A DNA stretch of 64,000 nucleotides, taken from the NCBI GenBank assembly GCA_948144175.1, contig CANXME010000212.1:1613501-1677500 (forward strand). The letters run 5' to 3'. The position numbers and the translations under genes are program-made. Each line of letters starts with the position of its first letter. Within the stretch, counting starts at the first letter, position 1. The stretch is from Closterium sp. NIES-65 (taxonomy: Eukaryota; Streptophyta; Zygnematophyceae; Desmidiales; Closteriaceae). Below the pieces are notes generated by a model that saw only the letters and a list, made by a program, of their open reading frames with translations, was not told where the DNA came from and made no database searches. Shown here piece after piece: positions 7,749-41,355 of this stretch.

Positions 7749-7970
7749 CTCCGCCTAAAACGTTGCTGGTGCGTTGCAGAGTCCGAACGGCATCACCAAG
7801 TATTCGTAGGAGCCGTATCTGGTACGGAACGCTGTCTTGTGGACGGAGTTGTCTGCCATCTTGATCTGCCAGTAGCCCGATCGTAGGTCCAATTTCGAAA
7901 ATACTGTTGCTCCACGCAGTTGATCGAGTAGGTCGTCTATGCGCGGTATGGGATATTTGTTTTTGACTGT

Positions 7971-11559: not shown

Positions 11560-12317
11560 AGCAGCGCTGTGTGGCGTGCGGGCGTCCACACTTCTGACCA
11601 GTGCGGTCACCAGTGCGAATGACGTACGTGCAGCTAAAGCCACCCCCCCCCCCCCCGGTGCAGAGATTACCACTCACGGACCTCCTGGGGCGACGGAGTG
11701 TGCTGGTGGCCCTGGCCACCGCCAACGCCTCCACGACCACCCCCGCCGCCGCCACTTTCTCGACCACCCCAACCCCTGCCGCCGCCGCGTCCACCGCCAC
11801 CCCCACCACCGCCTCCGCCCCTGCCACCTCCCCCGCCGCTGCCGCCATCACCCCCACCGCTGCCACTAGCCCCTCCAGTCGCGCCACCACCCCCACCGCC
11901 TCCACCGCCCCCACCACCGCCTCCCCCGCCGTCACCGCCACCACCCTTGCCCCCTTTGCCCTTGCCGCTGCGGTGCCCGCTCGAAGCAAACGCAGTACCG
12001 ACCTTCTCAGCACCAAGGAGGTCGACAGCAGCAGCAGAGGAGACAGAGGGAAGAAGGGGGGAAGGAGAACACCCCTCAAAGAACGGGGTACGGGGGTCGC
12101 CACGAGAGGCACCTACAGCGACTATGCTAGTCTCAGCTGCACGCAGTTCCTTCTCGAGGAGGGCAATGGTGAGCTTAGTGGGGCAGCGAACCAGGAAGTG
12201 GTCCCTGACAGCACGAAGTGTGTCAGGGAGGCGGGTGACTAGGTGGTAGAGAGTGAGCCAGAGCGTGGGGGGATGCGTGGCAAGGAACTCAGCGGGCATG
12301 GCGGCACGGAAGCGGGC

Positions 12318-12459
12318 TGTCAGTAGAGCTACACTGTGAGATCCCCGATCGATCCTAGTGGGGGTTACAGGAGCGTTTGCCTGGGGGGTTATGGGCGCAC
12401 TGACCCGCTACTGAAACAAGCCCTTTTATCCCAATGGTCTAGTGGTTGGGATTCTGACA
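12318..12459 (+). repeat. 5' LTR of TRIM-1
   Basis: A 142-bp LTR beginning TGTCAGTAGAGC and ending GGGATTCTGACA. It has no TATA-like run; an A-box-like TGGTCTAGTGG lies at 12435-12445. Confidence 0.9.
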
Positions 12460-12499
12460 TGGTATCAGAGCGATCTCGGGTTCGAATCCCGGTGTATGC
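12428..12499 (+). promoter_or_regulatory. tRNA-like Pol III-type A/B-box cassette across the LTR/primer-site junction
   Basis: The A box TGGTCTAGTGG (12435-12445) lies in the LTR. The B box GGTTCGAATCC (12479-12489) lies in the internal region. The start-to-start spacing of 44 equals that of a real tRNA. A D-arm-like segment resembles tRNA-Glu. A 5-bp anticodon-type stem (12453-12457 with 12465-12469) has a 7-base loop, and the T arm is 12476-12492. The acceptor arms do not pair and loop position 33 is not U, so this is not a working tRNA gene. The Pol III promoter role is an inference. Confidence 0.6.
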
Positions 12500-12552
12500 A
12501 CATGTTGGCCGTTGCTACTGTGCTCAGTCCTGGGCCTCCTAGTGTTGGGGGG

Positions 12553-12694
12553 TGTCAGTAGAGCTACACTGTGAGATCCCCGATCGATCCTAGGGGGGGT
12601 TACAGGCGCGTTTGCCTTGGGGGTTATGGGCGCACTGACCCGCTACTGAAACAAGCCCTTTTATCCCAATGGTCTAGTGGTTGGGATTCTGACA
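12553..12694 (+). repeat. 3' LTR of TRIM-1
   Basis: A second 142-bp copy, followed by the target duplicate cgggc. Confidence 0.9.
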
Positions 12695-13136
12695 CGGGCC
12701 TCACTAGTACGGAGGTGCGTGATGAGGTCAGCGACTGTGTGGAACGAGGCCAGGTCGGGAAACAGGTAGGGGAGGGAGAGCCGGCCTAGCGCGGCAGAGG
12801 CAGGTGAGGAGTAGCGAGCAACGACAGCTGTGTACAGTGCGTGTGCAGTCTTGTGCTGGCCAAAGTGCTCGCGTTTGTCTATCAGCAGGGAGTTGCGAAT
12901 AGCGAAGCGAGCGTGGGCATTACGAGTTTGCCACTGTGAGCGGGCAGTGCTGTCAGCAGCAGCAGCAGGAGCAGTAGCATGGCCTAGGGCGTGATCGTAC
13001 AGTGAGATGTCCTCCTTGGCAGTGAGCTGTAGGAAGAGGTGTAGGTCATCTAGCCAGGTATCAAACTTCACTGGGCGGCCCTCAGCATCGAAAGTTAGCA
13101 CAGAATAGCTAGCCATAGCAGCAGTAGAGTAGCAGA

Positions 13137-17481: not shown

Positions 17482-18102
17482 TTTCAGAATCCCAACCACT
17501 AGACCATTGGGATAAAAGGGCTTGTTTCAGTAGCGGGTCAGAGTGCGCCCATAACCCCCCAGGCAAACGCGCCTGTAACCCCCCGTAGGATCAATCGGGC
17601 ATCCACAGTGCAGATCTACTGACACCCCCCCACACTGAGAGGCCCAGAACTGAGCACAGCGGCAACGGCAACGGCCTACATGTGCATACACCGGGATTCG
17701 AACCCGAGACCACTCTGACACCATGTCAGAATCCCAGTCACTAGACCACTGGGATAAAAGGGCTTGTTTCAGTAGCGGGTCAGAGTGCGCCCATAACCCC
17801 CCAGGCAAACGCGCCTGTAACCCCCCGTAGGATCAATCGGGCATCCACAGTGCAGATCTACTGACACCCCCCCACACTGAGAGGCCCAGAACTGAGCACA
17901 GCGGCAACGGCCTACATGTGCATACACCGGGATTCGAACCCGAGACCACTCTGACACCATGTCAGAATCCCAGTCACTAGACCACTGGGATAAAAGGGCT
18001 TGTTTCAGTAGCGGGTCAGAGTGCGCCCATAACCCCCCAGGCAAACGCGCCTGTAACCCCCCGTAGGATCAATCGGGCATCCACAGTGCAGATCTACTAA
18101 CA
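17482..18102 (-). mobile_element. TRIM-2: tandem TRIM array (three LTRs, two internal regions)
   Basis: Same family as TRIM-1, reverse strand, flanked by cgatc (17477-17481 and 18103-18107). The LTRs are 17482-17624, 17724-17866 and 17960-18102, each 143 bp. The internal regions are 17625-17723 and 17867-17959 (99 and 93 bp). Each internal region carries a primer-site variant beginning TGGTGTCAGAG, a perfect B box and a short G-rich tract. The LTR-internal-LTR-internal-LTR form fits unequal recombination between copies or template switching during reverse transcription. It sits inside the reverse transcriptase of element A. Confidence 0.9.
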
Positions 18103-19278: not shown

Positions 19279-19410
19279 TGTGAAAGAAAGAACGAGAATG
19301 AATTGACTATGAACGAAGTGAGTACAAATAGGAAACCCTAATTGGGTTGTACCCCCTATGGGATACCCCACTATAGCCTACACAAATAAGTAAGCTATAA
19401 TGTTCTGACA
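19279..19410 (-). repeat. 3' LTR of element B
   Basis: A 132-bp LTR, TGTGAAAG to TTCTGACA. It adjoins the shared PPT-type motif (19411-19432). Confidence 0.92.
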
Positions 19411-19622
19411 CACCCCCATAGGCAAAGTGGGGGAGAACAAGGGGTCACAAGACCAGTCAAGTAAAGCAAAGCAAAGCTCAGGGTGGATCACAAAGTCACC
19501 ACACATTCCGAGCACAAGTTCAAAGGCCACAAGGCCAGTTCACATGCAAGATCATATATAGAGATATACAAGAGTCAAGCAAGCAAGAACAAGAGTATAT
19601 ATAGGTGAAGGTACAAGCAAGG

Positions 19623-22600
19623 TCAAGAAGTGAGCAAGTGAGGCAAGACAGGCACAAGACCCAGCTGCGTGCAGCAACGCTGATGATCACAAGGCGCAAG
19701 TGCCTTGGTGAAGACATCAGCAGTGTTGGCCTCAGAGGCCACGTACGCAAGTCGCAACTGTCCACGCTGCTGTAGCTCACGAGCAAGAAAGTAGCGGAGA
19801 GCAATGTGCTTTGTCCTGTGCTCCAGTCGCTGCTCTCGACAGAAGGCCAGCATGGCCTTGTTGTCTACGTACAGGACTGGAGGAGAACGAGGCGGCTCTC
19901 CAAGGTCGGTCAGCAGGTAGGTGAGCCAGCGTAACTCCTGTGCAGCCATAGCCCCAGCGTAGATATCAGCCTCACAACTGGAGCCGAGAACAGAAGACGA
20001 GCGAATAGCCCGCCACGAAACAGAGCCAGAACCAAGGCCGAAGGAGAGACCCTGTGACGACCGCTGCGTAGCCTGGTCGTCAGCCCAAGAAGCGTCCGCG
20101 TGCCCAGTGAGGACCACTGGACTGCGCCCTCCAAGCACTAGCCCCATGCCAGATGTACTGCACAAGTAGCGCAACACCCTCTTCGCTGCAGCCATGTGCT
20201 CTGGTCGGTGTCTCCCAGGAGCAACATAGCGTGCGAGAATGCTGAGAGGGTATGCAAGGTCAGGTCGTGTGCACGTCATCAGGTACATGAGGCAGCCAAC
20301 AAGCTCTGCATACAGGCCACTCGACTCTACGGACTCATCCGAAGGCAGAGCTGAGAGCGAGTGGCGAGTAGGCAGAGGAGTGGCCTGAGGCAAGGAGTAC
20401 GTGAAGCCGAAGCGCTGAAGGACCTGCTGCACCATGTGTGACTGAGTCAGGGTAATGGTGCGGCGTGCTCTGTCTCGGGTGATCTGCAAGCCAAGGTAGC
20501 TGCGCAGTTCACCCAGGTCAGTGCACGTGTGTCTCTTCTGCAGCTCGGACTTCACGTAGGCGAGTCCAGCAGTGTCCGCTGTGGCAAAGACCAAGTCGTC
20601 GACGTACACGAGGATGTAGAACGGCGGCAGAGAGGTGTCGGTGCGCAGAAACAGCGACGGGTCGGCAGTAGAAGGAGCAAACCCAAGTGCCGCAAGCGTA
20701 GTCCTCAGTGTGTCGTGCCACTCACGTGGCGCCTGGCGGAGACCGTAGACTGGACGCCGGAGACTCCACTGGGTACCAGGAGGGAAAGACCCAGTGAAGC
20801 CAGGTGGGCGACGCAGCCAGATCTCCTCGTGCAGGCTGCCCTGCAAGAAAGTTGTGCTGAAGTCGAGAGAGTGCAGCTCGTAGTCGCGGTGAGCAGCAAC
20901 GTGCAGCAGTACCCGAAGAGTGGTCATCTTCGGGGTGGGGGAGAAGGTCTGAAAGTAGTCAACTCCCTGCCGCTGACTGAAGCCACGAGCCACGTAACGC
21001 GCCTTGAAGACGGGCGGAGAGCCCGGCGGCCGCTTCACCCTGAAGATCCACATGCCACTGACGATGTTCGCCCCAGGAGGGGGAACAGCGTCAACGTAGG
21101 TGCCTGTGGACTTCCAGGAAGCCATCTCTGCATCCATAGCTGCCTGCCACTGAGAGGAGTAGGGACCCTCTATCGCCTCCGCGTAAGAGCGTGGAGTCGG
21201 GATGTCTAGTGCATCCGGGTCTCCCTCAGGGGCGAGCACTACAGACGCGAGATGAGGTGAAGCGGCGGCCAGACACTGGAACTCTTCCTGCCTGTCCTCA
21301 AGGACGTCCGTGCCTAGGGCACACTCACCCCCGACGGACGGAGGACAGGCAGACTCAGACTCAGCGACAAGACTAGCAGCGTAATCTAGACGACAGCACG
21401 CAGCAAAGTCGACAAGCTCAGTGACAAGGGCAGACACAGCAGAAGACTCGAAGGAAGGGTCAGTGACAGCAGTAGCAAGGAGACGCGTGACAGTGGGACT
21501 GGCAGCACGAAGAGAGTCCGACTCCGGGTCGGCAAGAGCAGGAAGAGAGGAAGCAGGAGGAGAAGGCAAAGGGGCACGCAGAGGAGCAGTGGACGGACGC
21601 AGAGACATCCGGTGCGTGCCAGGGACAGGAGGAGGACGCTGACGCGAACCGCGACCACTAGTGCGTGCAGTGCGAACAGGCGACGCAGGACGAGACGCAG
21701 GCTCACGACGCTCAGTAAGACCTCCAGTCGGACCAGCGTAGGGAGAAGGAGCAGTCAAGGGGGAGGCAGGCTGTAGCTGTGACTGTGACGGGACTGGCTG
21801 TGGACCCTCTAAGGGAGGAGGAGGAGGACCAGGAGAAGGTGTCAGACCAAGAACCTGCTGCAGGAGCGGAACGAAGTACGGTCGGGGCCGCGTGGCGACG
21901 CCAGAAACAGCAGGGATAGCACCAGTACCCCCAGCAGGAGTACCCGCTCCAGCAGCACCTCCAGCAGCACTTCCAGCACCCCCAGTAGCACCAGGAGCAC
22001 TGCCAGTCGGACAGCCAGCAGTAGTCTCAGCGCCAACACCCGCAGCAGTACCAGCTGCAGGAGAACCCTCAGGCCCAGCACCCACAGCATGAGCACGTCC
22101 GAGACGCGCGGCAGCAGCACCCTCTGCAGCCGAAGAACCTCCAGCACCAGCAGCACGCCTCCAGCGCCGGGCAAACCACTCACGCAGCTCCTGTGGGGAG
22201 AGTGGCTCTCGGCGAGACGAAGCACCTCCAGGCGGAGAACCTCCAGGCTCAGCACCCTCAGGCAAAACACCTCCAGGCGGAGCACCCCCAGTCTCAGCAC
22301 CCCCAGGCTCAGCACCCCCAGGCTCAGCACCCCCAGGCTCAGTACCCCCAGGCTCAGCACCCCCAGGCTCAGCACCCCCAGGCTCAGCACCTCCAGGCTC
22401 AGCACCCCCAGACTCCGCACCCCCAGGCTCAGCTCCTGCAGCAGCACCAGAGTCACCAGTGACCTCGACAGGCTCGACCGCGTCTACCTGGGACACACCT
22501 GAAGGGGCACGACCCTGAGGGGGGAGGGGGTCTACCGGGGGGGGACCTGGTACCAAGAAGAGCGGGGGCGGGGGAAGGGAAGGAGTGCGGTAGGGGAAGA

Positions 22601-23102
22601 GGCGGTAGTAGGGTACCGACTCATCGAACGTGACGTCCTGGGAGGACAGAACACGTCGAGAGGTGGGGTGGTAGAACTGCCACCCAGGGGCGTCGGGGGG
22701 GAACCCCAGGAAGACGCAGGGAGCAGCGCGAGGAGACAGCTTGTCCGCAGACAAGTCGCGGACAAACGCCCGAGATCCCCAGACCCGGAACGCCGACGCA
22801 TCGCCAACCTTCCCCGTCCACAGCAGGGCTGGGGAGGTCTCCGGCCTGGAGACCCTGGGGTGGAGGTTGATCTGATGCGCTGCGTACCTGACCGCAAACG
22901 GCCACAAAAAATGGGGGGCAGCCGCATGCATCATAGACGTACGAGCGACGTCCATGACCATGCCAATGCGGCGCTCTGCAATCCCATTTTGCTGCGGTGA
23001 GTCCGGAAGCGTGAAGGTCTGGCGGATGCCTCGCGCACGACAGAAGGCACGCAGAAGGCCAGAGGAGAACTCTCCGCCTCTGTCCGAGTGCAGACGCAAC
23101 AC
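19623..23102 (-). CDS. Element B integrase end, linker, reverse transcriptase and RNase H
   Basis: A 1159-codon open stretch. It begins at the second integrase acidic motif (LRLHSDRGGEFSSG), with PQQNGIAERR following near 22990. The linker is an AEPGG-type repeat (22430-22240) and a Pro/Ala-rich tract with one REWF box (about 22180). RVT_2 has its YVDD motif at about 20596-20607. RNase H includes HADASWADDQATQRSSQG (about 20105-20050) and ends ANTADVFTKAL near 19690. It is one of the better preserved frames in the window. Confidence 0.9.
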   Translation of the reverse strand: MLRLHSDRGGEFSSGLLRAFCRARGIRQTFTLPDSPQQNGIAERRIGMVMDVARTSMMHAAAPHFLWPFAVRYAAHQINLHPRVSRPETSPALLWTGKVGDASAFRVWGSRAFVRDLSADKLSPRAAPCVFLGFPPDAPGWQFYHPTSRRVLSSQDVTFDESVPYYRLFPYRTPSLPPPPLFLVPGPPPVDPLPPQGRAPSGVSQVDAVEPVEVTGDSGAAAGAEPGGAESGGAEPGGAEPGGAEPGGAEPGGTEPGGAEPGGAEPGGAETGGAPPGGVLPEGAEPGGSPPGGASSRREPLSPQELREWFARRWRRAAGAGGSSAAEGAAAARLGRAHAVGAGPEGSPAAGTAAGVGAETTAGCPTGSAPGATGGAGSAAGGAAGAGTPAGGTGAIPAVSGVATRPRPYFVPLLQQVLGLTPSPGPPPPPLEGPQPVPSQSQLQPASPLTAPSPYAGPTGGLTERREPASRPASPVRTARTSGRGSRQRPPPVPGTHRMSLRPSTAPLRAPLPSPPASSLPALADPESDSLRAASPTVTRLLATAVTDPSFESSAVSALVTELVDFAACCRLDYAASLVAESESACPPSVGGECALGTDVLEDRQEEFQCLAAASPHLASVVLAPEGDPDALDIPTPRSYAEAIEGPYSSQWQAAMDAEMASWKSTGTYVDAVPPPGANIVSGMWIFRVKRPPGSPPVFKARYVARGFSQRQGVDYFQTFSPTPKMTTLRVLLHVAAHRDYELHSLDFSTTFLQGSLHEEIWLRRPPGFTGSFPPGTQWSLRRPVYGLRQAPREWHDTLRTTLAALGFAPSTADPSLFLRTDTSLPPFYILVYVDDLVFATADTAGLAYVKSELQKRHTCTDLGELRSYLGLQITRDRARRTITLTQSHMVQQVLQRFGFTYSLPQATPLPTRHSLSALPSDESVESSGLYAELVGCLMYLMTCTRPDLAYPLSILARYVAPGRHRPEHMAAAKRVLRYLCSTSGMGLVLGGRSPVVLTGHADASWADDQATQRSSQGLSFGLGSGSVSWRAIRSSSVLGSSCEADIYAGAMAAQELRWLTYLLTDLGEPPRSPPVLYVDNKAMLAFCREQRLEHRTKHIALRYFLARELQQRGQLRLAYVASEANTADVFTKALAPCDHQRCCTQLGLVPVLPHLLTS

Positions 23103-23153
23103 AGGAAAGTCGGAGCCAAAGCTCTGCCTGAGCTGGAGACGAGCTGCGCGGAT

Positions 23154-24191
23154 CTAGTCGATCAGCACCTCAGTGACATCACCCTTGCTGCGCAAGGGGA
23201 AGACTGTGGTGTAACGCGAGTAGTCGTCAACCACCAACAGGAAGTAGCGCTCGTGACCGAGTCCACGGACGCGGGCAGGGCCCCACACGTCCATGTGAAG
23301 TGTCTGCAACGGAGCCTCTGTCGGAGGAAACTGGGAGGAGTGAGGGGCAGCATGCTGGCGCCCCTCGACACAGGGGACACAGGCAGGGCCAGGGCCCTGA
23401 GGAAGGGGAGGGAGGGACCAGGGGAGACCAGACACAAGAAGACGGGAGGCCATGCCTCTGAGCCGAAGCAGAGAGGGGTGGCCAAGGCGGTGGTGCCAGA
23501 GGAGAGTCTCGTGAGACAGACGGCGACACGAACAGGGGGCAGACTCAGGACCAGACCTGGACGCTGCAGCAAACACCTGACCAGACGAAGGGACTCTACC
23601 AGACTCAGCACCGGGAGGAGAAGCAGTGGTCAGTGTGTACAGGCTCGACCCTGGCTGACGTCTAAACGTAGCCAGGTGGCGACCTGTGCTAGCCTCTGTG
23701 CAGTGTGTCACCCGCTGACGAGCAGGAGTGAACTGGTGGACCCCCACATCCTGTAGGTCAGCACCACTCACCAGGTTCGTAGAGAACGAAGGGAGGTAAA
23801 GACCAGTAAGGGTGCCAGAGGGAGCCGCCGCACACGGGAGGACTGTGGAGAAACGAGACAGGACAGGACCCCCAGAGGGGTCAGCCAGGGACACCGCAAC
23901 CGGCCGACTAAGCGGCGTGAGAGTGGTGCGGTCCCGAAAGAAGGAGCGAGACGCCTCAGAGTCAAGGGTGAAGGTGTGGGAGGCAGAAGCCGACACAGTA
24001 CCTGAGAGGGCACACTCACTAGCACTTGAGAGCACAGACGCACTGGCACCTAGAGCAGCAGCCTCACTGGCACCTGACACAGCAGTACCAATGCCCGGGT
24101 CGGGCGGAAAGCACCGGTAACACTCACCATCATCACTAACAGTCACAGCATACATGGCAGCAAGGATAGCATCAAAGTCAAGATCAAACAC
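23154..24191 (-). CDS. Element B protease and start of integrase
   Basis: A 345-codon open stretch. The retropepsin-like segment LDSEASRSFFRDRT lies near 23970-23930. The GAG-pre-integrase motif (SHETLLWHHRLGHPS) lies near 23510-23470. The integrase N-terminal core (LHMDVWGPARVRG, VVDDYSRYTTVF) runs from about 23310 to 23190. Integrase continues in the next block. Confidence 0.85.
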   Translation of the reverse strand: MFDLDFDAILAAMYAVTVSDDGECYRCFPPDPGIGTAVSGASEAAALGASASVLSSASECALSGTVSASASHTFTLDSEASRSFFRDRTTLTPLSRPVAVSLADPSGGPVLSRFSTVLPCAAAPSGTLTGLYLPSFSTNLVSGADLQDVGVHQFTPARQRVTHCTEASTGRHLATFRRQPGSSLYTLTTASPPGAESGRVPSSGQVFAAASRSGPESAPCSCRRLSHETLLWHHRLGHPSLLRLRGMASRLLVSGLPWSLPPLPQGPGPACVPCVEGRQHAAPHSSQFPPTEAPLQTLHMDVWGPARVRGLGHERYFLLVVDDYSRYTTVFPLRSKGDVTEVLID

Positions 24192-24199
24192 ATCTACAC

Positions 24200-25510
24200 C
24201 AGCCCTAGACAGCTCTCCCCAGCGGGGGATCTCAGAGGCTTCTGGAAACTGCTGGCGCCAAGCGTCGGTCAGGCGGGCAAAGCAGCGGCGAGCGGTGTGG
24301 GTGCCCCCACACTGCTCACCCGCGCGGTCGCCGGTGCGAAGGACGTAGGCGCAGGGACCGAACGCCCCACCACGCTGACGCTGGGAGTACCACTCACGCA
24401 GCTGCTGAGGGGCGGGGACGTCGCGAGAGCGCTGTTGCTGCTGCTGCTGCTGGCGCTGACCACCCCCAGTGGCGCTCCTCTGGGACGAGCCACTCCGACC
24501 ACCTCCACCACCGCCACCCCCGCCTCCGCCGCCACCGCCGCCACCGCCACCCTCGCCCCCGCCGCTCCCACTGCCTCCTCCGCCACCACCTCCGCCGCCA
24601 CCTCCGCCTCCACCGCCGCCACCAGGACCTCCACCCCCTCCTCCACCCCCACCTTCACCCCCACTCCCCCCGCCGCCTCCACCTCCTCCGCCACCGCCCC
24701 CGCTAGCTCCACCCGCGCCCTTGCCCCCTTTGCTCCTGCCAGAGCGGCGCCTACCGCTGGGGGCAGACGCCGCACCGACCGACTCTAAACCAACAAGGTC
24801 GGCCGCAGCAGCAGAGGCGACAGAGGGTAGCAGGGGGGAAGGAGAACACCCTCAAAGATGGGGGTGCGCGGGTCACCACGAGAGGCCCCTACAGCGACTA
24901 TGCTCTTCTCGGCCGCTAGCAGGGACTTCTCAAGGAGGTCGACAGTGAGGGTGGTGGGACAGACAGAGAGAAACTGGTCCCTAACAGCACGAAGGGACTC
25001 AGGGAGACGGGTGACTAGAAAGTAGAGGGTGATGTACATGGGAGGGGGGTTTTCGGCGAGGAAGGCAGCAGGAAGCGCAGCTCGGTAGCGAGTGTCACTA
25101 GCGCGAAGGTGGGTAAAGAGGTCAGTGACTCTGGGAAAGGCAGCAAGGTCAGGGAAGAGGTACGGTAGCATGAGGCGGCTCAGTGTAGCAGTGGAAGGGG
25201 AGGAGTAGCGCGCAACTACAGCGTCGTACAAGGCCTGAGCGGTCTTGCACTGACTAAAGTGTGCACGCTCGGAGGAAGGGAGGTGGCGATGCACAGCAAG
25301 ACGTGCAGCAGCATCGCGTGTGGCCCACTTGGAGCGAACAGTGGGGTCAGCATCAGCAGGAGGGGCAGGGACAGCGCCAGAGACAAAGTCAAAGAGAGAA
25401 ACCTCATCGATCGCATCGCACAGTAAGTACAGCTGCAGGTCCTCAACCCAGACTGCAAAGTCAATGGCGCGACCCTCAGCGTCAAAAGTCAGGACACTGG
25501 GGGTGGCCAT
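24200..25510 (-). CDS. Element B gag
   Basis: Starts at 25510 (MATPSVLTFDAEGRAIDFAVW). The copia-type gag domain runs to about 24860, followed by a glycine tract (about 24730-24490), a REWY-type segment near 24390, and a knuckle-like segment with C-X13-C-X3-H-X4-C spacing followed by CFARLTDAWR (about 24360-24250). The antisense proline-rich reading at 24469-24948 is a shadow. Confidence 0.8.
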
Positions 25511-25599
25511 TGTAGCAGCTGACAGTCTCACCGGGCAGGAAGAGTCGGGTAGCACAGCGACACAGCAACACGGCAGCACAGCAGTTGCGCCGGCCCAGG

Positions 25600-26340
25600 A
25601 GCAGTAGGAGCCCCACAGGAGCAGAAGATCGGCTCCTCGGGCGGCTAGGGCGGCACGGGCGGCTCGGGCGGCTCGGGTGGCGCGGGCGTCTCGCGGGCGG
25701 CTCAGGCGGCTCGGGCGGCTCGGGCGGCGCGGGCGTCTCGCGGGCGGCTCGGGCGGCGCGGGCGTCTCGCGGACGGCTCGGGCGGCTCGGGCGGCACGGG
25801 CGTCTCGCGGGCGACTCACGGGCGGCCGCACGGGCGGCTGGGACGGCTCGCGGGCGGCTGCACGGGCGGCTGGGCACGGGCGGCTGCACTGGCGGCCGTA
25901 CGGGTAGGTGCACGGGTGGGTGCACGGGCAGGTGCACGGGCGACGCGGCGGCGAGGCGGCGTAGCAGAGGGCGGCAGGGCCGCGTGAGCAAGGCGGCGGG
26001 GCCGCTTAGCAGAGGGCGGCGGGTCCGCGATCGAAGGGCGGCGGGGCCGCTTAGCAGAGGGCGGCGGGGCCGCGATCGAAGGGCGGCGGGGCCGCTTAGC
26101 AGAGGGCGGCGGGGCCGCGATCGAAGGGCGGCGGGGCCGCTTAGCAGAGGGCGGCGGGGCCGCAATCGAAGGGCGGCGGGGCCGCTTAGCAGAGGGCAGC
26201 GGGGCCGCTAAGGAAGGGCGGCGGAGCCGCGATCGAAGGGCGGCGGGGCCGCTAAGGAAGCGCGGCGGAGCCGCGATCGAAGGGCGGCTGGGCCGCTAAG
26301 GGAAGGGCGGCGCGACGGGCCGCTGGGGGCGACACAACTG
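25600..26340 (-). repeat. GC-rich leader array of element B
   Basis: The untranslated leader between primer site and gag. It contains gcggctcgg-type short repeats (25630-25900) and then 33-66 bp units built from gaagggcggcggggccgctt (25970-26300). Long open frames on both strands arise from the repeats and are not genes. Confidence 0.75.
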
Positions 26341-26374
26341 CTTCTAGGGCCCACCGAAGCGCGTCCCTAGGAGG

Positions 26375-26392
26375 GAACCTGCTCTGATTCCA
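26375..26392 (-). other. Primer binding site of element B
   Basis: The reverse strand reads TGGAATCAGAGCAGGTTC immediately after the LTR, close to the initiator tRNA-Met complement. Confidence 0.75.
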
Positions 26393-26524
26393 TGTGAAAG
26401 AAAGAACGAGAATGAATTGACTATGAACGAAGTGAGTACAAATAGGAAACCCTAATTGGGTTGTACCCCCTATGGGATACCCCACTATAGCCTACACAAA
26501 TAAGTAAGCTATAATGTTCTGACA
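26393..26524 (-). repeat. 5' LTR of element B
   Basis: Identical by eye to the left copy; the target duplicate cttac follows. Confidence 0.92.
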
Positions 26525-26529
26525 CTTAC

Positions 26530-26666: not shown

Positions 26667-27168
26667 ACAGATTTAGGGACTATATTTCGGGATGCTGGTT
26701 TTTGTCATGTATACGCGACCATTTTGGGTGCAAAGATACCGAGTTACGTTCGACTCGACGTAATACACTTTATTTCTAAAAAACTTATGTATAAGTTTGA
26801 ATACATATATGTATATATGTATATATATTGCTAGAGTTCACAATTAATTGAATATGCCTAAATGTTTATCAAAATGTGTATATGCATCTTGATATAGATT
26901 TCGGCATGTGAACATTCCAAGTTATGTTTTTTTTTAGAGTATCTTGATAAACATTTAGGCAGATTCAATAATGTGTGAACTCTATAAATATATATGTATA
27001 TATATATAAATATATGTATGATACATATATGCGCTCAAATGCATGTAAACAATTTTTAAAACTAACGTGTGTTACTTCGATTCGAACGTAACCATGTATC
27101 TTTGCACCCAAAATGGTCGCGTATACAGGACAAAAACCAGCATCCCGAAATATAGTCCCTAAATCTGT
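26667..27168. mobile_element. AT-rich foldback MITE-like element (502 bp)
   Basis: The two ends are reverse complements (ACAGATTTAGGGAC to GTCCCTAAATCTGT). The first 100 bp of each arm match with few differences, and pairing continues at lower identity to the centre (for example cctaaatgtttatcaa near 26848 against its complement near 26945). A possible 3-bp duplicate aca flanks it (26664-26666 and 27169-27171). It is far more AT-rich than its surroundings and encodes nothing. A non-autonomous DNA transposon is the simplest reading; the superfamily is undetermined. Confidence 0.8.
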
Positions 27169-34142: not shown

Positions 34143-34147
34143 CTAAA

Positions 34148-34282
34148 TGTCAGAATGAGAAACGAGAATGAGGAGTGACTAGCAGGAACAACAGTACAAA
34201 TATGTCAAACCCTAATCTGGTGTACCCCTTATGGTGTGACCCACTACAGCCTAGAACCACACAAACATATAAATGTTTGACA
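34148..34282 (-). repeat. 3' LTR of element H
   Basis: A 135-bp LTR, TGTCAGAATGAG to TGTTTGACA, followed by the PPT-type motif at 34283. Confidence 0.93.
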
Positions 34283-34513
34283 CACCCCCATAGGCAAAGT
34301 GGGGGAGACCTAGGGGTCACAAGACCAGTCAAGGCAAAACAAGGCAAACAAGCTCAGGGTGGATCTCGAGGATTCCACACAAATTCCGAGCACAAGCAAG
34401 CGGTCACAAGACCAGTTCACATGCAGTTTTATAATACAGCAAGAGGTACAATGATCACAACCTAACAAGGCAAACATGCAGGTATATATATAATGATCAC
34501 AGTACAGGTAAAG

Positions 34514-37500
34514 TCAAGAAGTAAGTAAGTGAGAAACAGTCGGCACAAGACCTAGAAGAGTGCAAAAACGCTGATGGTCAACAGGCGGAAGCGCCTTGGT
34601 GAACACATCAGCAGTGTTGGCCTCAGTGGCCACGTAACGCAGAAGAAGCTGACCACGCTGCTGTAGCTCTCGAGCTAGAAAGTAACGCAGAGCAATGTGC
34701 TTCGTCCTGTGCTCCAGTCTGTGCTCCTGGCACAAGGCAATGGTTGCCTTGTTGTCGACGTACAGTACTGGAGGAGAACGAGGCTGCTCTCCAAGGTCAG
34801 TCAGCAGGTAGGTGAGCCAGCGAAGCTCCTGGGCAGCCATGGCCGTGGCGTAGATCTCAGCCTCACAGCTGGAGCTGAGAACAGAAGAAGAACGAGTAGA
34901 ACGCCAAGAGACAGAGCCAGAGCCAAGACTGAAGGTGTAACCCTGAGACGACCGCTGAGTAGCCTGGTCGTCTGCCCAAGAAGCGTCTGAGTGCCCAGTG
35001 AGAACAGGCCGGTCTCGCCCTCCAAGCACTAGCCCCATGCCCGACGTACTGCACAAGTAGCGCAACACCCTCTTAGCTGCATCCATGTGCTCCTTCCGGT
35101 GACGGCCGGGAGCAACATAGCGTGCTAAGATGCTGAGAGGGTATGCTAGGTCAGGTCGAGTGCAGGTCATCAGGTACATGAGGCAGCCCACAAGCTCTGG
35201 ATACGGACCACTCGACTCTACGGACTCATCCGAAGGCAGAGCTGAGAGCGAGTGACCCGTAGGCAGAGGAGTGGACTGAGGCGAGGAGTACGTGAAGCCG
35301 AAGCGCTGAAGGACCTGCTGCACCATGTGTGACTGAGTCAGGGTAATGGTGCGGCGTGCTCTGTCCCGGGTGATCCGCAAGCCAAGATAGCTTGTCAGTT
35401 CACCCAGGTCTGTGCACGTGTGTCTCTTCTGCAGCTCGGACTTCACGTGGGCGAGTGCGGCAGTGTCCGCAGTGGCAAAGACCAAGTCGTCGACGTACAC
35501 GAGGATGTAGAACGGCGGCAGCGAGGTGTCGGTGCGCAGAAACAGCGACGGGTCAGCAGTAGAAGGAGCAAACCTAAGAGCCGCAAGTGTAGTCCTCAGT
35601 GTGTCGTGCCACTCACGCGGCGCCTGGCGGAGACCGTAGACTGGCCGCCGGAGGCTCCACTGGGTGCCAGGAGGGAACGACCCAGTGAAGCCAGGTGGGC
35701 GGCGCAGCCAGATCTCCTCGTGCAGGCTGCCCTGCAAGAAAGCAGTGCTGAAGTCAAGAGAGTGGAGCTCGTAGTCACGCTGAGCGGCGACGTGTAGCAG
35801 AACCCGAAGAGTGGTCATCTTCGGGGTCGGGGAGAAGGTCTGGAAGAAGTCAACTCCCTCTCGCTGACTGAAGCCTCGTGCAACGTAACGCGCCTTGAAG
35901 ACAGGCGGAGAGCCTGGCGGCCGCTTCACCCTGAAAATCCACATGCCACTGACGATGTTCGCCCCAGGTGGGGGAACGTCGTCGACGTAGGTGCCTGTGG
36001 ACTTCCAGGAAGCCATCTCTGTGTCCATGGCTGACTGCCACTGAGAGGAGTAGGGACCGGCCATCGCCTCTGCGTAAGAGCGTGGGGTCGGGATGTCTGG
36101 TGCATCCGGGTCTCCCTCAGGGGCAACAAGCATGGACACGAGATGGGGCAAAGCAGCGGCAAGGCAACCAAACTCCTCCTGCCTGTCCTCAAGGACGTCC
36201 GTGCCAAGAGCACACTCACCCCCGACGGACGGAGGACAGGCAGACTCAGACTCAGCAACAAGACTCGCTGCGTAGTCTAGACGACACGCAGCTGCAAAGT
36301 CGACAAGCTCAGTGACTAGGGCAGACGCAGCAGCGGACTCAAAGGAAGGGTCAGTGACAACCGTAGCCAGGAGACGTGTGACAGTAGGACTGGCAGCGCG
36401 AAGGGAGTCTGACTCCGGGTCAGCAAGAGCAGGAAGAGAGGACGCAGGAGGCAACGGGAGAGCAACACGCTGCGGAGCAGTGGACGGACGAAGCGCCATC
36501 CGGTGCGTGCCTGGGACAGCAGGAGGACGCTCACGCGGGACACGACTACCAGTGGTAGCAGCTCGAACAGGCGACGCTCGACGAGACGCAGGTGACACTG
36601 GACGTGACGCAGGCTCACGTCTCTCAGCAAGACCGTCAGTCGGACCAGTGTAAGGAGCAGGCACAGGGAGTGGGGAGGCAGGCGGTAACTGTGGCTGTGA
36701 CTGGACAGACGGCGGACACTCTAAGGCGAGAGGAGAACAAGTAGGAGGAGGCTGACCAAGAACCTGCTGAAGGAGCGGAACGAAGTACGGTCGTGGCCGT
36801 GCAGCAGCTGTCGAACCAGCAGAGGCACCAGCGGCAGCAGCAGCACCTCCAGCACCAGGGTCCGCAGTACCTCCAGCAGCACCTCCAGCAGCACCGCCAG
36901 CAGCAGCAGTACCTCCAGCAACACCGCCAGCAGCAGCTGCACCTCCAGTACCAGGGTCCGTAGCACCCGCAGCAGCTCCAACGCCCGGGTCCTCAGTACG
37001 AGCAGCACCTCCAGCAGCACCGCTAGCAGCAGCAGTACCTCCAGCAGCACCGCCAGCAGCAGCAGCACCTCCAGCACCAGGGTCCGTAGTACTCGCAGCA
37101 GCGTCAACTCCGGGGACCCCAGCACCAGCAGCTCCACTACGGAGACTGATGTGCCGAGCGTACCACTCTCGAAGCTGAGGGGAAGAGGGCGGCTCCCGCC
37201 GTGGTGGGGAAGCACGAGTACCAACTCCAGCAGTACCACGAGCCCGAGACTCACCCCGCCGGAGGCTGCAGTACCGTGAGTACCACTCACGCAGCTGCTG
37301 CGAAGAGGGAGGTCCTCCAGGCGCCTCACAGTCAACTGCAACACCACCAGGCTCAGCACCCCCAGGCTCAGCAACACCAGGCGCAGTACCCCTAGACTCA
37401 GCAACGCTAGGCTCATTACCCCCAAACCCAGCACCCCCAGGCTCAGCACCCCCAGGATCAGCACCCCCAGACTCGGCACCCCCAGGCTCCGCCCGCTCAG

Positions 37501-39241
37501 GCTCCGCACGCTCAGGCTCCGCACGCTCAGGCTCAGCACCTCCAGCAGGACGCGAGTCGACAGCTACCTCGGCAGGCTCAACCGGGTCTACCTGAGAGAC
37601 ACCTGAGGGAGCGGCACCCTGAGGGGGAAGGGGGTCTACCACTGCAGCACCTGGCGCGAGGAAGAGAGGCGGGGGAGGGAGTGGGGCAGTGCGGTAGGGG
37701 AAGAGGCGGTAGAAGGGCACGGACTCGTCAAAAGTGACGTCCTGAGAGGGGAAGACTCGGTGCGAGGCGGGGTGGTAAAACTGCCAGCCAGACGCATCCG
37801 GGACAAAGCCAAGAAAGACACAGGGAGCAGTGCGGGAGGAGAGCTTGTCCGCAGACGTGTCGCGAACAAAAGCTCGGGATCCCCAGACACGGAAGCGTGA
37901 CGCATCGCCAACCTCCCCCGTCCACAGCAGTGTGGGCGAGGTCTCCGGAGCGGAGACACGGGGCCAGAGGTTGAGCTGATGCGCAGCGTACCGGACCGCA
38001 AACGGCCACAGAAAGTGGGGGGCAGCCGCGTGGACTAAGGAGGTACGAGCGACCTCCATGACCAAGCCAATGCGGCGCTCAGCAACCCCATTCTGCTGTG
38101 GAGAGGCCGGGAGCGTGAACGACTGGCGAATGCCATGCTCGGCACAGTAGGCTGCCAAGAGGTCGGAGGAGAACTCGCCACCTCTGTCAGAGTGCAAGCG
38201 CAGAACAGGAAACTCCGAGCGAAAACGCTCTCGCAGCTGAAGACGTGCACTGCTGATCCAGGGGATCAGAACATCAGGGACTTCACCCTTGGTGCGCAAG
38301 GGGAAGACCGTGGTGTAGCGCGAGTAGTCGTCAACGACGATCAAGAAGTACCTCTCCTGGCCCTGACCACGGACGCGGGCTGGGCCCCACACGTCCATGT
38401 GGAGCGTCTGCAAAGGAGCAGTCGTCGGGGGGAACGAGGAGGAGTGAGGGGCAGCACGCTGCCGCCCCTCGACACAAGGAAGACAAGGAGGAGCAAGGGA
38501 GGGTGGGAGGGGAGGGAGTACCCGAGGAAGACCAGAGACTAGGTACCGGGAGTGCATGCCCCGAAGGCGCTGCACTGACGGGTGACCAAGTCGGTGGTGC
38601 CAGAGGACAGTCTTGTGCGCTAGAGAGCGACACGAGCAGGGGACAGAGAGCTGACCTGACGCAGACGCAGACGCAGACGCCGCTACCTGAGGGGACTCAG
38701 TGGTCAGTGTGTACAAGTCCGACCCCGGCTGCCGAGTGAAGGTAGCCAGGTGACGGCCCGTCCGAGCACACGTGCAGTGTGTCACACGCTCGTAGGCAGG
38801 GGTGAACTGGTGAACACCCCCATCCTGAAGCGCACAACCCGCCACCAAGTTCGTAGAGAACGAGGGGAGGTGGAGACCTGACAGTGTGCCCAACGGGACA
38901 GCAGGACAAGGAAGGAGGGTGGAGGAGGTCGCAATGACCGGACCCCCAGAGGGGTCAGCGAGCGAGACAGCGACTGGTCGAGCAAGGGGCTCAAGAGCAG
39001 TGCGGTCACAAAAGAAATAGCGCGAAGCGCCTGAGTCTAGAGTGAAGGTGTGCAGTGCCTCAGTGGACTCAGTAGCACCTGGGGTGGCGGACACACACGC
39101 ACCTAGAGCAGTAGCCTCACCAGTACCTGGGGCAGCAGACACGCAAGCACCTAGGGCGGCAGCCTCACTCGTGCGGATGCCTGGGTCAGGCGGAACACTC
39201 AGGTACTGGTCCTCCTCTCCACTAATAGTCAATGCATACAT
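34514..39241 (-). CDS. Element H protease, integrase, linker, reverse transcriptase and RNase H
   Basis: A single 1575-codon frame. Retropepsin LDSGASRYFFCDRT lies near 39040-39000 and GAG-pre-integrase HKTVLWHHRLGHPS near 38620-38580. The integrase core has LHMDVWGPARVRGQG (about 38400), LRLHSDRGGEFSS (about 38190) and PQQNGVAERR (about 38090). The linker has AEPxx repeats (37540-37340), two REWY boxes (near 37275 and 37165) and long Ala/Gly repeats (37100-36830). RVT_2 has YVDD at about 35487-35498. RNase H runs from about 35010 to 34560, ending TEANTADVFTKAL. The domain order is that of copia polyproteins. Confidence 0.92.
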   Translation of the reverse strand: MYALTISGEEDQYLSVPPDPGIRTSEAAALGACVSAAPGTGEATALGACVSATPGATESTEALHTFTLDSGASRYFFCDRTALEPLARPVAVSLADPSGGPVIATSSTLLPCPAVPLGTLSGLHLPSFSTNLVAGCALQDGGVHQFTPAYERVTHCTCARTGRHLATFTRQPGSDLYTLTTESPQVAASASASASGQLSVPCSCRSLAHKTVLWHHRLGHPSVQRLRGMHSRYLVSGLPRVLPPLPPSLAPPCLPCVEGRQRAAPHSSSFPPTTAPLQTLHMDVWGPARVRGQGQERYFLIVVDDYSRYTTVFPLRTKGEVPDVLIPWISSARLQLRERFRSEFPVLRLHSDRGGEFSSDLLAAYCAEHGIRQSFTLPASPQQNGVAERRIGLVMEVARTSLVHAAAPHFLWPFAVRYAAHQLNLWPRVSAPETSPTLLWTGEVGDASRFRVWGSRAFVRDTSADKLSSRTAPCVFLGFVPDASGWQFYHPASHRVFPSQDVTFDESVPFYRLFPYRTAPLPPPPLFLAPGAAVVDPLPPQGAAPSGVSQVDPVEPAEVAVDSRPAGGAEPERAEPERAEPERAEPGGAESGGADPGGAEPGGAGFGGNEPSVAESRGTAPGVAEPGGAEPGGVAVDCEAPGGPPSSQQLREWYSRYCSLRRGESRARGTAGVGTRASPPRREPPSSPQLREWYARHISLRSGAAGAGVPGVDAAASTTDPGAGGAAAAGGAAGGTAAASGAAGGAARTEDPGVGAAAGATDPGTGGAAAAGGVAGGTAAAGGAAGGAAGGTADPGAGGAAAAAGASAGSTAAARPRPYFVPLLQQVLGQPPPTCSPLALECPPSVQSQPQLPPASPLPVPAPYTGPTDGLAERREPASRPVSPASRRASPVRAATTGSRVPRERPPAVPGTHRMALRPSTAPQRVALPLPPASSLPALADPESDSLRAASPTVTRLLATVVTDPSFESAAASALVTELVDFAAACRLDYAASLVAESESACPPSVGGECALGTDVLEDRQEEFGCLAAALPHLVSMLVAPEGDPDAPDIPTPRSYAEAMAGPYSSQWQSAMDTEMASWKSTGTYVDDVPPPGANIVSGMWIFRVKRPPGSPPVFKARYVARGFSQREGVDFFQTFSPTPKMTTLRVLLHVAAQRDYELHSLDFSTAFLQGSLHEEIWLRRPPGFTGSFPPGTQWSLRRPVYGLRQAPREWHDTLRTTLAALRFAPSTADPSLFLRTDTSLPPFYILVYVDDLVFATADTAALAHVKSELQKRHTCTDLGELTSYLGLRITRDRARRTITLTQSHMVQQVLQRFGFTYSSPQSTPLPTGHSLSALPSDESVESSGPYPELVGCLMYLMTCTRPDLAYPLSILARYVAPGRHRKEHMDAAKRVLRYLCSTSGMGLVLGGRDRPVLTGHSDASWADDQATQRSSQGYTFSLGSGSVSWRSTRSSSVLSSSCEAEIYATAMAAQELRWLTYLLTDLGEQPRSPPVLYVDNKATIALCQEHRLEHRTKHIALRYFLARELQQRGQLLLRYVATEANTADVFTKALPPVDHQRFCTLLGLVPTVSHLLTS

Positions 39242-39299
39242 GGCTTTGAGAATAACATCAAAATCAAGAGCATAGATATCGATATCCTTCTTGAGGAGA

Positions 39300-40537
39300 T
39301 CAGCCCACTGAGGGAGCTCAGGAGCGTCAGGAAACTGAGCACGCCAAGCGTCATCTAGGCGAGAGAAGCAGCGCTGCGAAGTGTGCGCCCTCCCGCACGT
39401 CTGTCCCTTGCGGCGACCAGTGCGGATGACGTACGTGCAGCTAAGGCTACCCCCCCCACCCCCGTGCTGTAAGTACCACTCACGAAGCTCCTGGGAGGAC
39501 TGAGGGTGCTGCGCACTCTGGCCAGTGCCAGAGCCTCCACGACCACCACCGCCGCCTCCACCACGACCACCACCGCCCCTGCCGCCGCCACGTCCACTGC
39601 CGCCACCACCACCGCCCCCACCGCGGCCACCGCCGCCGCCGCTGCCTCCACCACTCCCACCGCTGCCACTAGCCCCTCCAGCCCCGCCACCACCCCCGCC
39701 GCTGCCACCACCCCCACCACCACCTCCCCCGCTGTCACCCCCACCGCCCTTGCCTCCCCTGCCCTTGCCGCTGCGGCGCCCGCTGGGAGCGGACGCAGAG
39801 CCGACCTACTCAGCACCAAGAAGGTCGACAGCAGCAGCAGAGGCGACAGAGGGGAGGAGGGGGGAGGGGGAACACCCCTCGAAGAAAGGGGTGCGGGGGT
39901 CGCCACGAGAGGCACCTACAGCTACAATACTCTTCTCAGCTGCAAGTAGTTCCTTCTCTAGGGCGGCAATGGTGAGCTCAGTGGGACAGCGAGCTAGGAA
40001 GTGGTCCCTGACTGTACGCAGAGTGTCAGGGAGGCGGGTGACTAGGTGGTAGAGAGTGAGCCAGAGTGGGGGAGGGTTGGAGGCAAGAAACTCAGCGGGC
40101 ATGGCTGCACGGAAGCGGGCATCACTAGTACCGAGGTGAGTGATGAGGTCAGCGACTGTCTGGAAAGCGGACAGGTCGGGGAACAGGTAGGGAAGGGAGA
40201 GACGGCCTAGTGCAGCTGAAGCCGGGGAGGAGTAGCGCGCAGCTACAGCAGTGTACAGGGCCTGCGCAGTCTGATGCTGGCCGAAGTGCTCACGCTCATC
40301 GACTGGCAGGGAGTTGCGAATGGCAAAGCGGGCGTGGGCATCGCGAGTCTGCCACTGCGAGCGAGCAGTAGCGGTAGCAGTAGTAGCAGGAGCAGGGACT
40401 GTGCCTAGTGCGTGATCGTACAGCGAAATATCCTCTCTGGCAGTGAGCTGGAGGAACAGGTGCAGGTCATCGAGCCAGGTATCAAACTTAATCGAGCGGC
40501 CCTCAGAATCGAACGAGAGAACTGTAGGGCTAGCCAT
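39300..40537 (-). CDS. Element H gag
   Basis: The chosen start is 40537 (MASPTVLSFDSEGRSIKFDTW), which aligns with the gag starts of C and F. The alanine/threonine-rich in-frame extension to 40609 is a leader triplet repeat. The gag domain runs to about 39800, a glycine tract lies at 39770-39530, a REWY-type box near 39470, and a knuckle-like CTYVIRTG...C segment near 39445-39370. Confidence 0.8.
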
Positions 40538-40559
40538 AGCTGAAGTAGCAGTAGCAGCA

Positions 40560-41190
40560 GTGGTGATAGTAGCAGTAGCAGTAGCAGTAGCAGTAGCAGT
40601 GCTGTGCACAGGTAAGTAGGGCGTGGCTCGGTTAGGGCGGCGCGGCTCGGCTAGGGCGGCGCGACTCGGCTAGGGCGGCGCGACTCGGCTAGGGCGGCGC
40701 GGCTCGGCTGGGGCGGCGCGGCTCGGCTGGGTCGCGCGGTTCGGTTCGGGTCGCGCCGTGCGGCTCAGTCGTAGAGGGGCGAGCACGGGAGGGCCGGTCG
40801 GGGCTAGCGCGGGGCCTGCAGGGGCCGTGGGAGGCTAGCGCGGGGCCGACGGGGGCCTTAGGAGGCTAGCGCGGGGCCGATCGGGGGCATAAGGAGGCTA
40901 GCGCGGGGCTAGCGTGGGGCCGACGGGGGCTTAGGAGGCTAGCGTGGGGCCGACGGGGGCCTTAGGAGGCTAGCGCGGGGCCGATCGGGGGCCTTAGGAG
41001 GCTAGCGCGGGGCTAGCGTGGGGCCGACGGGGGCCTTAGGAGGTTAGCGCGGGGCCGATCGGGGGCCGTGAGAGGCTAGCGCGGGGCCATACGGGGCCTT
41101 GAGAAGGAGGCGCTCGAGGCGCAGGAAAAAGAACGGCGGCGCACGAGGGCGCGGCTAGTGGAAACGGTGGGCCCTATCGTTTCGGTCCTA
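40560..41190 (-). repeat. GC-rich leader array of element H
   Basis: A cagtag triplet run (40562-40600), ggctagggcggcgcg repeats (40625-40720), then units of roughly 30-60 bp with the core gaggctagcgcggggccga (40810-41090). Untranslated leader; no gene seen. Confidence 0.8.
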
Positions 41191-41215
41191 GGTGGAACCT
41201 AGGCTCGTAATACCA

Positions 41216-41350
41216 TGTCAGAATGAGAAACGAGAATGAGGAGTGACTAGCAGGAACAACAGTACAAATATGTCAAACCCTAATCTGGTGTACCCCTTAT
41301 GGTGTGACCCACTACAGCCTAGAACCACACAAACATATAAATGTTTGACA
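41216..41350 (-). repeat. 5' LTR of element H
   Basis: Identical by eye to the left copy. The primer site next to it (41198-41215) reads TGGTATTACGAGCC on the reverse strand, a variant of the usual initiator tRNA-Met site. Confidence 0.93.
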
Positions 41351-41355
41351 CTAAA

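Follow-up and report, generated by a model that had tools for sequence, protein, structure and literature searches.

The LTR/PBS junction of TRIM-1, a 377-bp TRIM at positions 12318-12694 on the plus strand of the window (the whole 64,000-nucleotide stretch of Closterium DNA analysed here), contains an A box inside the 5' LTR and a B box inside the internal region, with the PBS (12460-12471) lying between them and a start-to-start distance of 44 nt. This placement of the two boxes, put forward in the original prediction, is borne out by the coordinates, and the observation of split boxes at the junction is confirmed. The presence of both boxes at tRNA spacing in TRIM-1 is beyond chance. There is good support for a tRNA-type promoter divided by the LTR/PBS junction, as an arrangement of sequence that a large mobile family has kept; that the junction acts as the Pol III promoter of a TRIM mobilised by Copia is, judged from sequence, a probable reading that we favour with some reserve. 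The two LTRs of TRIM-1 (142 bp each) differ from each other at three positions and flank an internal region of 93 bp.

12313..12317, no strand: left TSD CGGGC, 5 bp
12318..12459, plus: 5' LTR, 142 bp, TGTCAG...CTGACA
12418..12427, plus: putative R region AAGCCCTTTT, with a candidate start after the C of CAA (12417-12419) and the T4 run at its end
12424..12427, plus: sole T4 run in the LTR + internal unit, a candidate Pol III terminator in its 3'-LTR copy (12659-12662)
12428..12452, plus: 8-bp hairpin (12428-12435/12445-12452) enclosing the A box; two pairs changed on both sides
12435..12445, plus: A box TGGTCTAGTGG, inside the LTR; strict in 69 of 78 copies
12453..12469, plus: 5-bp stem with a 7-base loop, its 3' strand within the PBS (sequence and fold)
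12460..12552, plus: internal region, 93 bp, of insufficient length to encode mobilisation proteins
12460..12471, plus: PBS TGGTATCAGAGC, its letters equal to those given for the Cassandra PBS
12476..12492, plus: T-arm-like hairpin enclosing the B box (fold and pair count)
12479..12489, plus: B box GGTTCGAATCC, inside the internal region; strict in 64 of 78 copies
12547..12552, plus: polypurine tract (PPT) GGGGGG adjoining the 3' LTR (sequence)
12553..12694, plus: 3' LTR, with an A box at 12670 and no B box downstream
12695..12699, no strand: right TSD CGGGC

TRIM-1 manifests the features of a TRIM, namely short LTRs, a PBS, a PPT, a length below 1 kb without a coding region, 5-bp TSDs, and dispersed copies. 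We take its PBS to be of the tRNA-iMet type. The LTR contains no TATA, in agreement with the prediction that it lacks a TATA-like run. Given that the B box lies outside the LTR, both boxes occur only where an LTR precedes an internal region, and 3' and solo LTRs are without a B box. As a chance control, A+B pairs at 25-75 nt were counted in dinucleotide shuffles of the whole window: the mean was 0.043 pairs per shuffle, with any pair in 13 of 300, and the real window contains one, that of TRIM-1. Shuffles of the TRIM-1 element yielded an A+B pair in 4 of 20,000.

A second element, TRIM-2, is an array on the opposite strand.

17482..18102, minus: array of LTR-internal-LTR-internal-LTR, TSD GATCG
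18102-17960, 17866-17724 and 17624-17482, minus: LTRs
17930..17984, minus: junction 1, with A-box variant TGGTCTAGTGA at 17984-17974 and B box at 17940-17930
17694..17748, minus: junction 2, with the A-box variant at 17748-17738 and B box at 17704-17694

The claim that the arrangement is kept in TRIM-2 is correct as regards the B box and its distance of 44 nt from the A box; the last G of the A box, however, is replaced by A, and the strict A pattern therefore fails at both TRIM-2 junctions. Tandem arrays of LTR + internal units were observed in four genomic loci (L053, L079, L090, and L102) as well as at 17482-18102 of the window.

Genomic copies and subfamilies

The Closterium assembly (874 Mb, 2,400 contigs) was searched with the 377-bp element, which yielded 1,688 preliminary candidates (40 were scored), and with patterns from the junction. 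A 19-mer spanning the LTR end and the PBS had 12,526 matches with up to two mismatches, the exact 19-mer was followed within 24 nt by a full B box (GGTTCGANNCC) at 2,342 junctions, and the exact A-box LTR end had 5,855 matches; reversed-pattern controls gave 0 for all three. The genome-wide search suggested with the original prediction thus uncovered thousands of matches to the junction. No copy was matched in viral_contigs, and the junction pattern had no match in the bacterial contigs of genome_contigs. A single Flavobacterium match, which by eye lies within a tRNA stretch, was rejected as unrelated.

For closer comparison, 100 exact 19-mer places on low-numbered contigs were taken as a non-random draw from the 12,526; 95 of these gave loci, with the other five lying within stretches already taken. 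Among 98 distinct junctions in 93 of the sampled loci, both strict boxes were present in 56, only the A box in 16, only the B box in 14, and neither in 12. By likeness, 78 junctions were of TRIM type on both sides, three on the LTR side, eight on the internal side (some of them just under the LTR cut-off or incomplete), and nine on neither. The 78 TRIM-type junctions showed a strict A box in 69 cases, a strict B box in 64, both in 56, and the upstream T4 in 72, so that conservation of the boxes across copies is not refuted by this sample. The spacing of A and B boxes in the 56 junctions with both was 44 nt in 34 and 47 nt in 22. A B box stood behind an LTR of non-TRIM type in 3 of the 98.

In the 78 copies, variation within the B box is greatest at a position where the consensus is itself degenerate. 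Minor letters amounted to 2.2% at the invariant box positions, 3.15% in the other columns of the cassette, and 6.0% in a set of 23 columns of U3. The extra conservation of the boxes relative to the rest of the cassette was not significant in these copies (permutation P = 0.31). Selection specific to the boxes was therefore not demonstrated, and the conservation is that of the whole cassette. A TATA was present in 6 of 81 TRIM-type LTRs versus 8 of 16 LTRs of other, mostly Copia-like, types, after one of the 98 junctions had been set aside for its shortness; this distribution mildly favours a promoter other than that of Pol II.

The copies fall into two subfamilies, alpha, with a period of 233-236 as in TRIM-1, and beta, with a period of 203-209. 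A comparison of 34 alpha units, to which TRIM-1 was added, with 32 beta units from the sample gave identities of 75% for the 5' part of U3, 35% for the internal tails, which are unrelated, and 87-89% for the stretches corresponding to 12388-12417 and 12490-12501. Identity was 96% for the proposed R, 95% for the A box, and 90% for the B box; the values for the rest of U5 (99%) and the PBS (99.8%) were raised at the U5 end and PBS because sampling required an exact match to the 19-mer, outside of which both boxes lie. The cassette is kept as a block between alpha and beta by either selection or recombination.

The same junction was encountered in 54 predicted proteins of Closterium NIES-53/54, corresponding to 30 distinct junction readings, one of which has a long insert. 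In this set, which is biased to open frames and to the query words, the letters GFES covering the B box were kept in 26, 29, 28, and 29 of the 30 readings, respectively, and the A-box end was of TRIM-2 type in 10 of 30. These gene models (P0121-P0174) contain translated TRIM sequence, in some of them with repeated or spliced-looking pieces. For the annotation of Closterium genomes, this means that pieces of the element stand within predicted proteins.

Mobility and the link to Copia

All eight loci taken from the search with the 377-bp element have a TSD, one of them being TRIM-1 and another (L003) lying between the same flanks. The LTRs are identical in six of the eight, and together with the TSDs these six loci indicate that the family moved recently. 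In the larger sample of 73 elements, six without a recognisable LTR start were dropped, and a perfect TSD was found in 46 of the remaining 67. Fifteen of the 21 elements without a TSD are flanked by PBS-like or G-run sequence and look like members of arrays.

The window also contains two Copia elements.

19279..26525: full-length Copia element, 5-bp TSD, LTR stretches 100% identical
34147..41351: full-length Copia element, 5-bp TSD, LTR stretches 100% identical

Their identical LTR stretches mark both elements as recent. The LTRs are approximately 135 bp (identical stretches of 133 bp in the former and 137 bp in the latter) with TGTCA...CA ends, and the PBS is TGGTATTACGAGC or TGGAATCAGAGC. 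Among 6,905 relatives of a Copia protein from the window, the 120 listed all come from Closterium, and protein relatives of this kind place the host in that genus. The resident Copia elements resemble the TRIM in their TGTCA...CA termini and in a PBS of the same type, and two Copia-like loci (L013 and L042) have TTCTGACA and TGGTATCAGAGC exactly in common with it. The window elements further resemble the TRIM in their 5-bp TSDs and G-rich polypurine tract, whereas they differ from it in full-length coding, TATA-bearing LTRs, and the lack of an A or B box.

One genomic locus (L043, positions 1-1419) joins a Copia-like 5' LTR to a beta internal region and beta 3' LTR, with GTATC at both flanks, and is best explained as the product of recombination during shared transposition. 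Similar joints occur in L034 and L057, without a matching TSD. The TSDs, the recent copies, and the TSD-flanked chimera point to mobilisation of the TRIM by Copia-like elements.

Candidate Pol III promoter and competing readings

If the junction is a tRNA-type promoter, TFIIIC would span the PBS, in contact with the A box on its 5'-LTR side and the B box on its internal side. Initiation by Pol III would fall near 12418, approximately 17 nt before the A box, at a CAA triplet; CAA is a start motif of plant tRNA genes. The polymerase would then transcribe through the PBS and the internal region as far as the T4 run of the 3' LTR (12659-12662), with the product being an RNA of approximately 245 nt that carries the 10-nt repeat R at both ends for strand transfer, an arrangement reported for Cassandra. 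A primer of the tRNA-iMet type would begin cDNA synthesis, Copia proteins would copy and insert the TRIM cDNA, and this promoter would be inactive in the 3' LTR and in solo LTRs.

The T4 run lies just upstream of the A box in each TRIM-1 LTR. At least one T4 per unit is found in approximately one-third of shuffles, and the run was rejected as a striking signal because such an occurrence is not unusual by chance. The copy in the 5' LTR falls at +7 of the predicted transcript and would need to be read through by Pol III. An inner T4 is lacking from the predicted transcripts of 25 of 26 alpha units and of 28 of 29 beta units; given that the transcripts are likewise without A4 in 21 of 26 and 24 of 29, respectively, the absence of an inner T4 says little. 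In a search of the Closterium genome with RF00005, for which 63 of 18,457 candidates were scored, two tRNA-Ile genes on large contigs were followed by T runs of 8 and 6, and T4 may therefore be a weak terminator.

The RNA of the junction folds into three hairpins, at 12428-12452, at 12453-12469 on the PBS, and in the T-arm-like region, with unremarkable z-scores of -0.27 for TRIM-1 and -1.46 for TRIM-2. Two of the tRNA-like arms described in the original prediction are present in this fold: an anticodon-type stem in which the LTR end (TCTGA, 12453-12457) pairs with the PBS (TCAGA, 12465-12469) around the 7-base loop CATGGTA, and a T arm with its stem at 12476-12480/12488-12492 and loop TTCGAAT. 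The proposed D arm, whose resemblance is presumably to that of tRNA-Glu, was not upheld, its letters folding instead as the 8-bp hairpin 12428-12435/12445-12452. A cloverleaf was accordingly rejected, there being no acceptor stem in addition to the different fold of the D-arm region.

Pairing was counted in 38 sequences, consisting of 36 of the 81 TRIM-type junctions, hand-picked with near-identical ones left out, and the two window junctions; the PBS stem, being within the 19-mer anchor, is invariant in the genomic rows. The hairpin at 12428-12452 was paired in 98.4% of cells and had changes on both sides at two pairs, in six such cells. In a shuffle control that keeps relatedness among the sequences in place, the paired percentage and the number of two-sided cells were each reached by 2 of 500 shuffles and the covariation score by 3 of 500, yet the number of two-sided pairs was matched by 141 of 500. 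The T-stem was paired in 91.6% of cells without any compensatory change, losing pairs while most B-box letters stay. A divergent copy (L031) has a further compensatory pair in the hairpin, with the letters GGTCTAGTGGCTAGGATTC, which we take to recall the D arm of tRNA-Glu. The data for the hairpin at 12428-12452 give a hint that the RNA, too, has a role.

These hairpin data are an argument for the strongest alternative, according to which the TRIM is transcribed by Pol II, the junction is kept as an RNA structure for Copia priming or packaging, and its likeness to tRNA boxes is a relic or by-product. It is also in keeping with the spread of conservation over the cassette without a focus on the boxes, with the joints to Copia-like LTRs, which have a B box without an A box, and with the window Copia elements, in which a small hairpin is seen by eye directly after the PBS. 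The B-box letters, however, are kept more than the T-stem, as a DNA promoter would require, the Copia stretches examined downstream of the PBS contain no B box, 75 of the 81 TRIM-type LTRs are without a TATA, and such hairpins need no two perfect boxes at tRNA spacing. We regard this alternative as possible but rather unlikely.

The boxes and their spacing are tRNA-like, and a tRNA gene, or a Helenus element with a whole tRNA-like sequence in its LTR, would account for them. The B box is internal, however, rather than in the LTR, and there is no acceptor stem. ARAGORN called no tRNA in the window or in 103 genomic loci, and the Rfam tRNA model gave no match in 20 loci at E values up to 10, a limit that a 16.4-bit match would exceed in that larger search. 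Covariance scoring of the TRIM-1 junction, proposed as a check of its tRNA likeness, did not lend support, with the Rfam tRNA score of 16.4 bits being below the gathering score of 29; tRNA models thus do not score a cloverleaf in TRIM-1. The whole window had no Rfam match at the gathering threshold, and two other weak matches in the TRIM-1 stretch, both to plastid families and on the minus strand, fell far short of their thresholds. A tRNA gene or whole-LTR Helenus element is consequently quite improbable.

We consider it similarly far-fetched that reverse transcriptase ran past its usual stop and, in doing so, took the letters beyond the PBS from the T arm of the primer tRNA. The sequence there is T-arm-like, and T arms are near-palindromic; a T arm copied in this way, however, would be antisense and adjoin the PBS, whereas the B-box letters are in sense and further away (12472-12489), and the A box on the LTR side would be left unexplained. 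Chance resemblance in one element, with which the covariance score below the gathering score would agree, is scarcely credible given the shuffles, the thousands of genomic matches, and the two subfamilies with the cassette.

Relation to known elements and implications

tRNA-derived SINEs insert by target priming, and the TRIM differs from them in its LTRs, PBS, PPT, and integrase-type TSDs. It resembles them in having internal A and B boxes and in being a short non-coding retroelement, as SINEs are described in the available text of Kojima 2024 (PMC10886601).

In the same available text, TRIMs with tRNA-like sequences in their LTRs are named Helenus, and TRIMp3 covers those of all Pol III types (PMC10886601). 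The promoter interpretation in the original prediction therefore stands in part: the split arrangement is conserved in a large family, but a tRNA-type counterpart of Cassandra is not new, since Helenus TRIMs, as described there, already are that. Fungal and plant Helenus families share with the Closterium TRIM the LTRs, PBS, PPT, and 5-bp TSDs, as well as tRNA-like A and B boxes as a presumed Pol III promoter, and in fungi Copia is the likely driver, with tandem arrays in one family (PMC10886601, available text). Both boxes of Helenus are described as lying within the LTR (PMC10886601, available text), whereas in the Closterium TRIM only the A box does so and the B box lies beyond the PBS, which it follows in the 2,342 exact genomic junctions. 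Fungal Helenus elements, according to this source, inflate predictions of tRNA genes, whereas ARAGORN calls none in the Closterium loci. The A and B letters themselves are conserved as in Helenus, being strict in 69 and 64 of 78 copies, though not significantly more so than neighbouring columns (P = 0.31). Membership in Helenus as defined fails on one tested feature, the presence of both boxes in the LTR, which leaves a Helenus-like manner of working unaffected. The sole plant Helenus family in the host table of that source, which includes no alga, is from Selaginella, with a 120-bp LTR and an 85-bp internal portion (PMC10886601); in that family, too, the two boxes may be split.

Cassandra, in the available texts, is a TRIM of the 5S type with a 5S rRNA promoter in its LTR (PMC10886601, PMC7215508, PMC10853983) and an R of 18 bp (PMC10886601). 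Like the Closterium element as we read it, it is described as a streptophyte TRIM of Pol III type with the PBS TGGTATCAGAGC, tandem arrays, and a short R between start and terminator. Its promoter is nevertheless 5S-type and within the LTR, whereas the candidate promoter of the Closterium TRIM is tRNA-type and split. No 5S rRNA was matched in 12300-12720 by Rfam at E values up to 10, and a 5S rRNA with its boxes A and C is accordingly absent from the LTR of TRIM-1.

In the literature searched, which takes in few subscription papers, we found no recognisable description of an A box in the LTR combined with a B box beyond the PBS, and the available text of the Closterium genome paper (PMC10407611) contains no mention of 'LTR' or 'retrotransposon'. 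The Pol III-type TRIM promoters in the literature examined, as far as its available text goes, lie inside the LTR; the logic would be a different one if the promoter became complete only where LTR and PBS meet. Both LTRs would carry half a promoter, which would be whole only at the 5' end of an intact element. The full form of this reading, in which a Pol III promoter extends across the PBS with its A box on the LTR side, its B box on the internal side, and the landing site of the primer tRNA as the spacer, so that each element has one start and solo and 3' LTRs are mute, is to our minds evenly balanced. If it is true, solo and 3' LTRs would be unable to fire into flanking host DNA, and the spacer between the boxes would be recopied from the primer tRNA in each round of transposition. 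Such a lock would explain how a Pol III TRIM multiplied into the thousands in an alga close to where land plants arose, and it leads to a testable prediction, wide spread without outward firing from every LTR.

Three other features of the window were noted. An open frame at 5433-7754 on the minus strand appears by eye to be part of a Gypsy-type polyprotein (reverse transcriptase and integrase). Nested inverted repeats with arms of 148 and 75 bp, 85 and 84% complementary, respectively, lie at 26667-27168. A long tandem array with 14-bp spacing at 60445-62340 is open in several frames on both strands.
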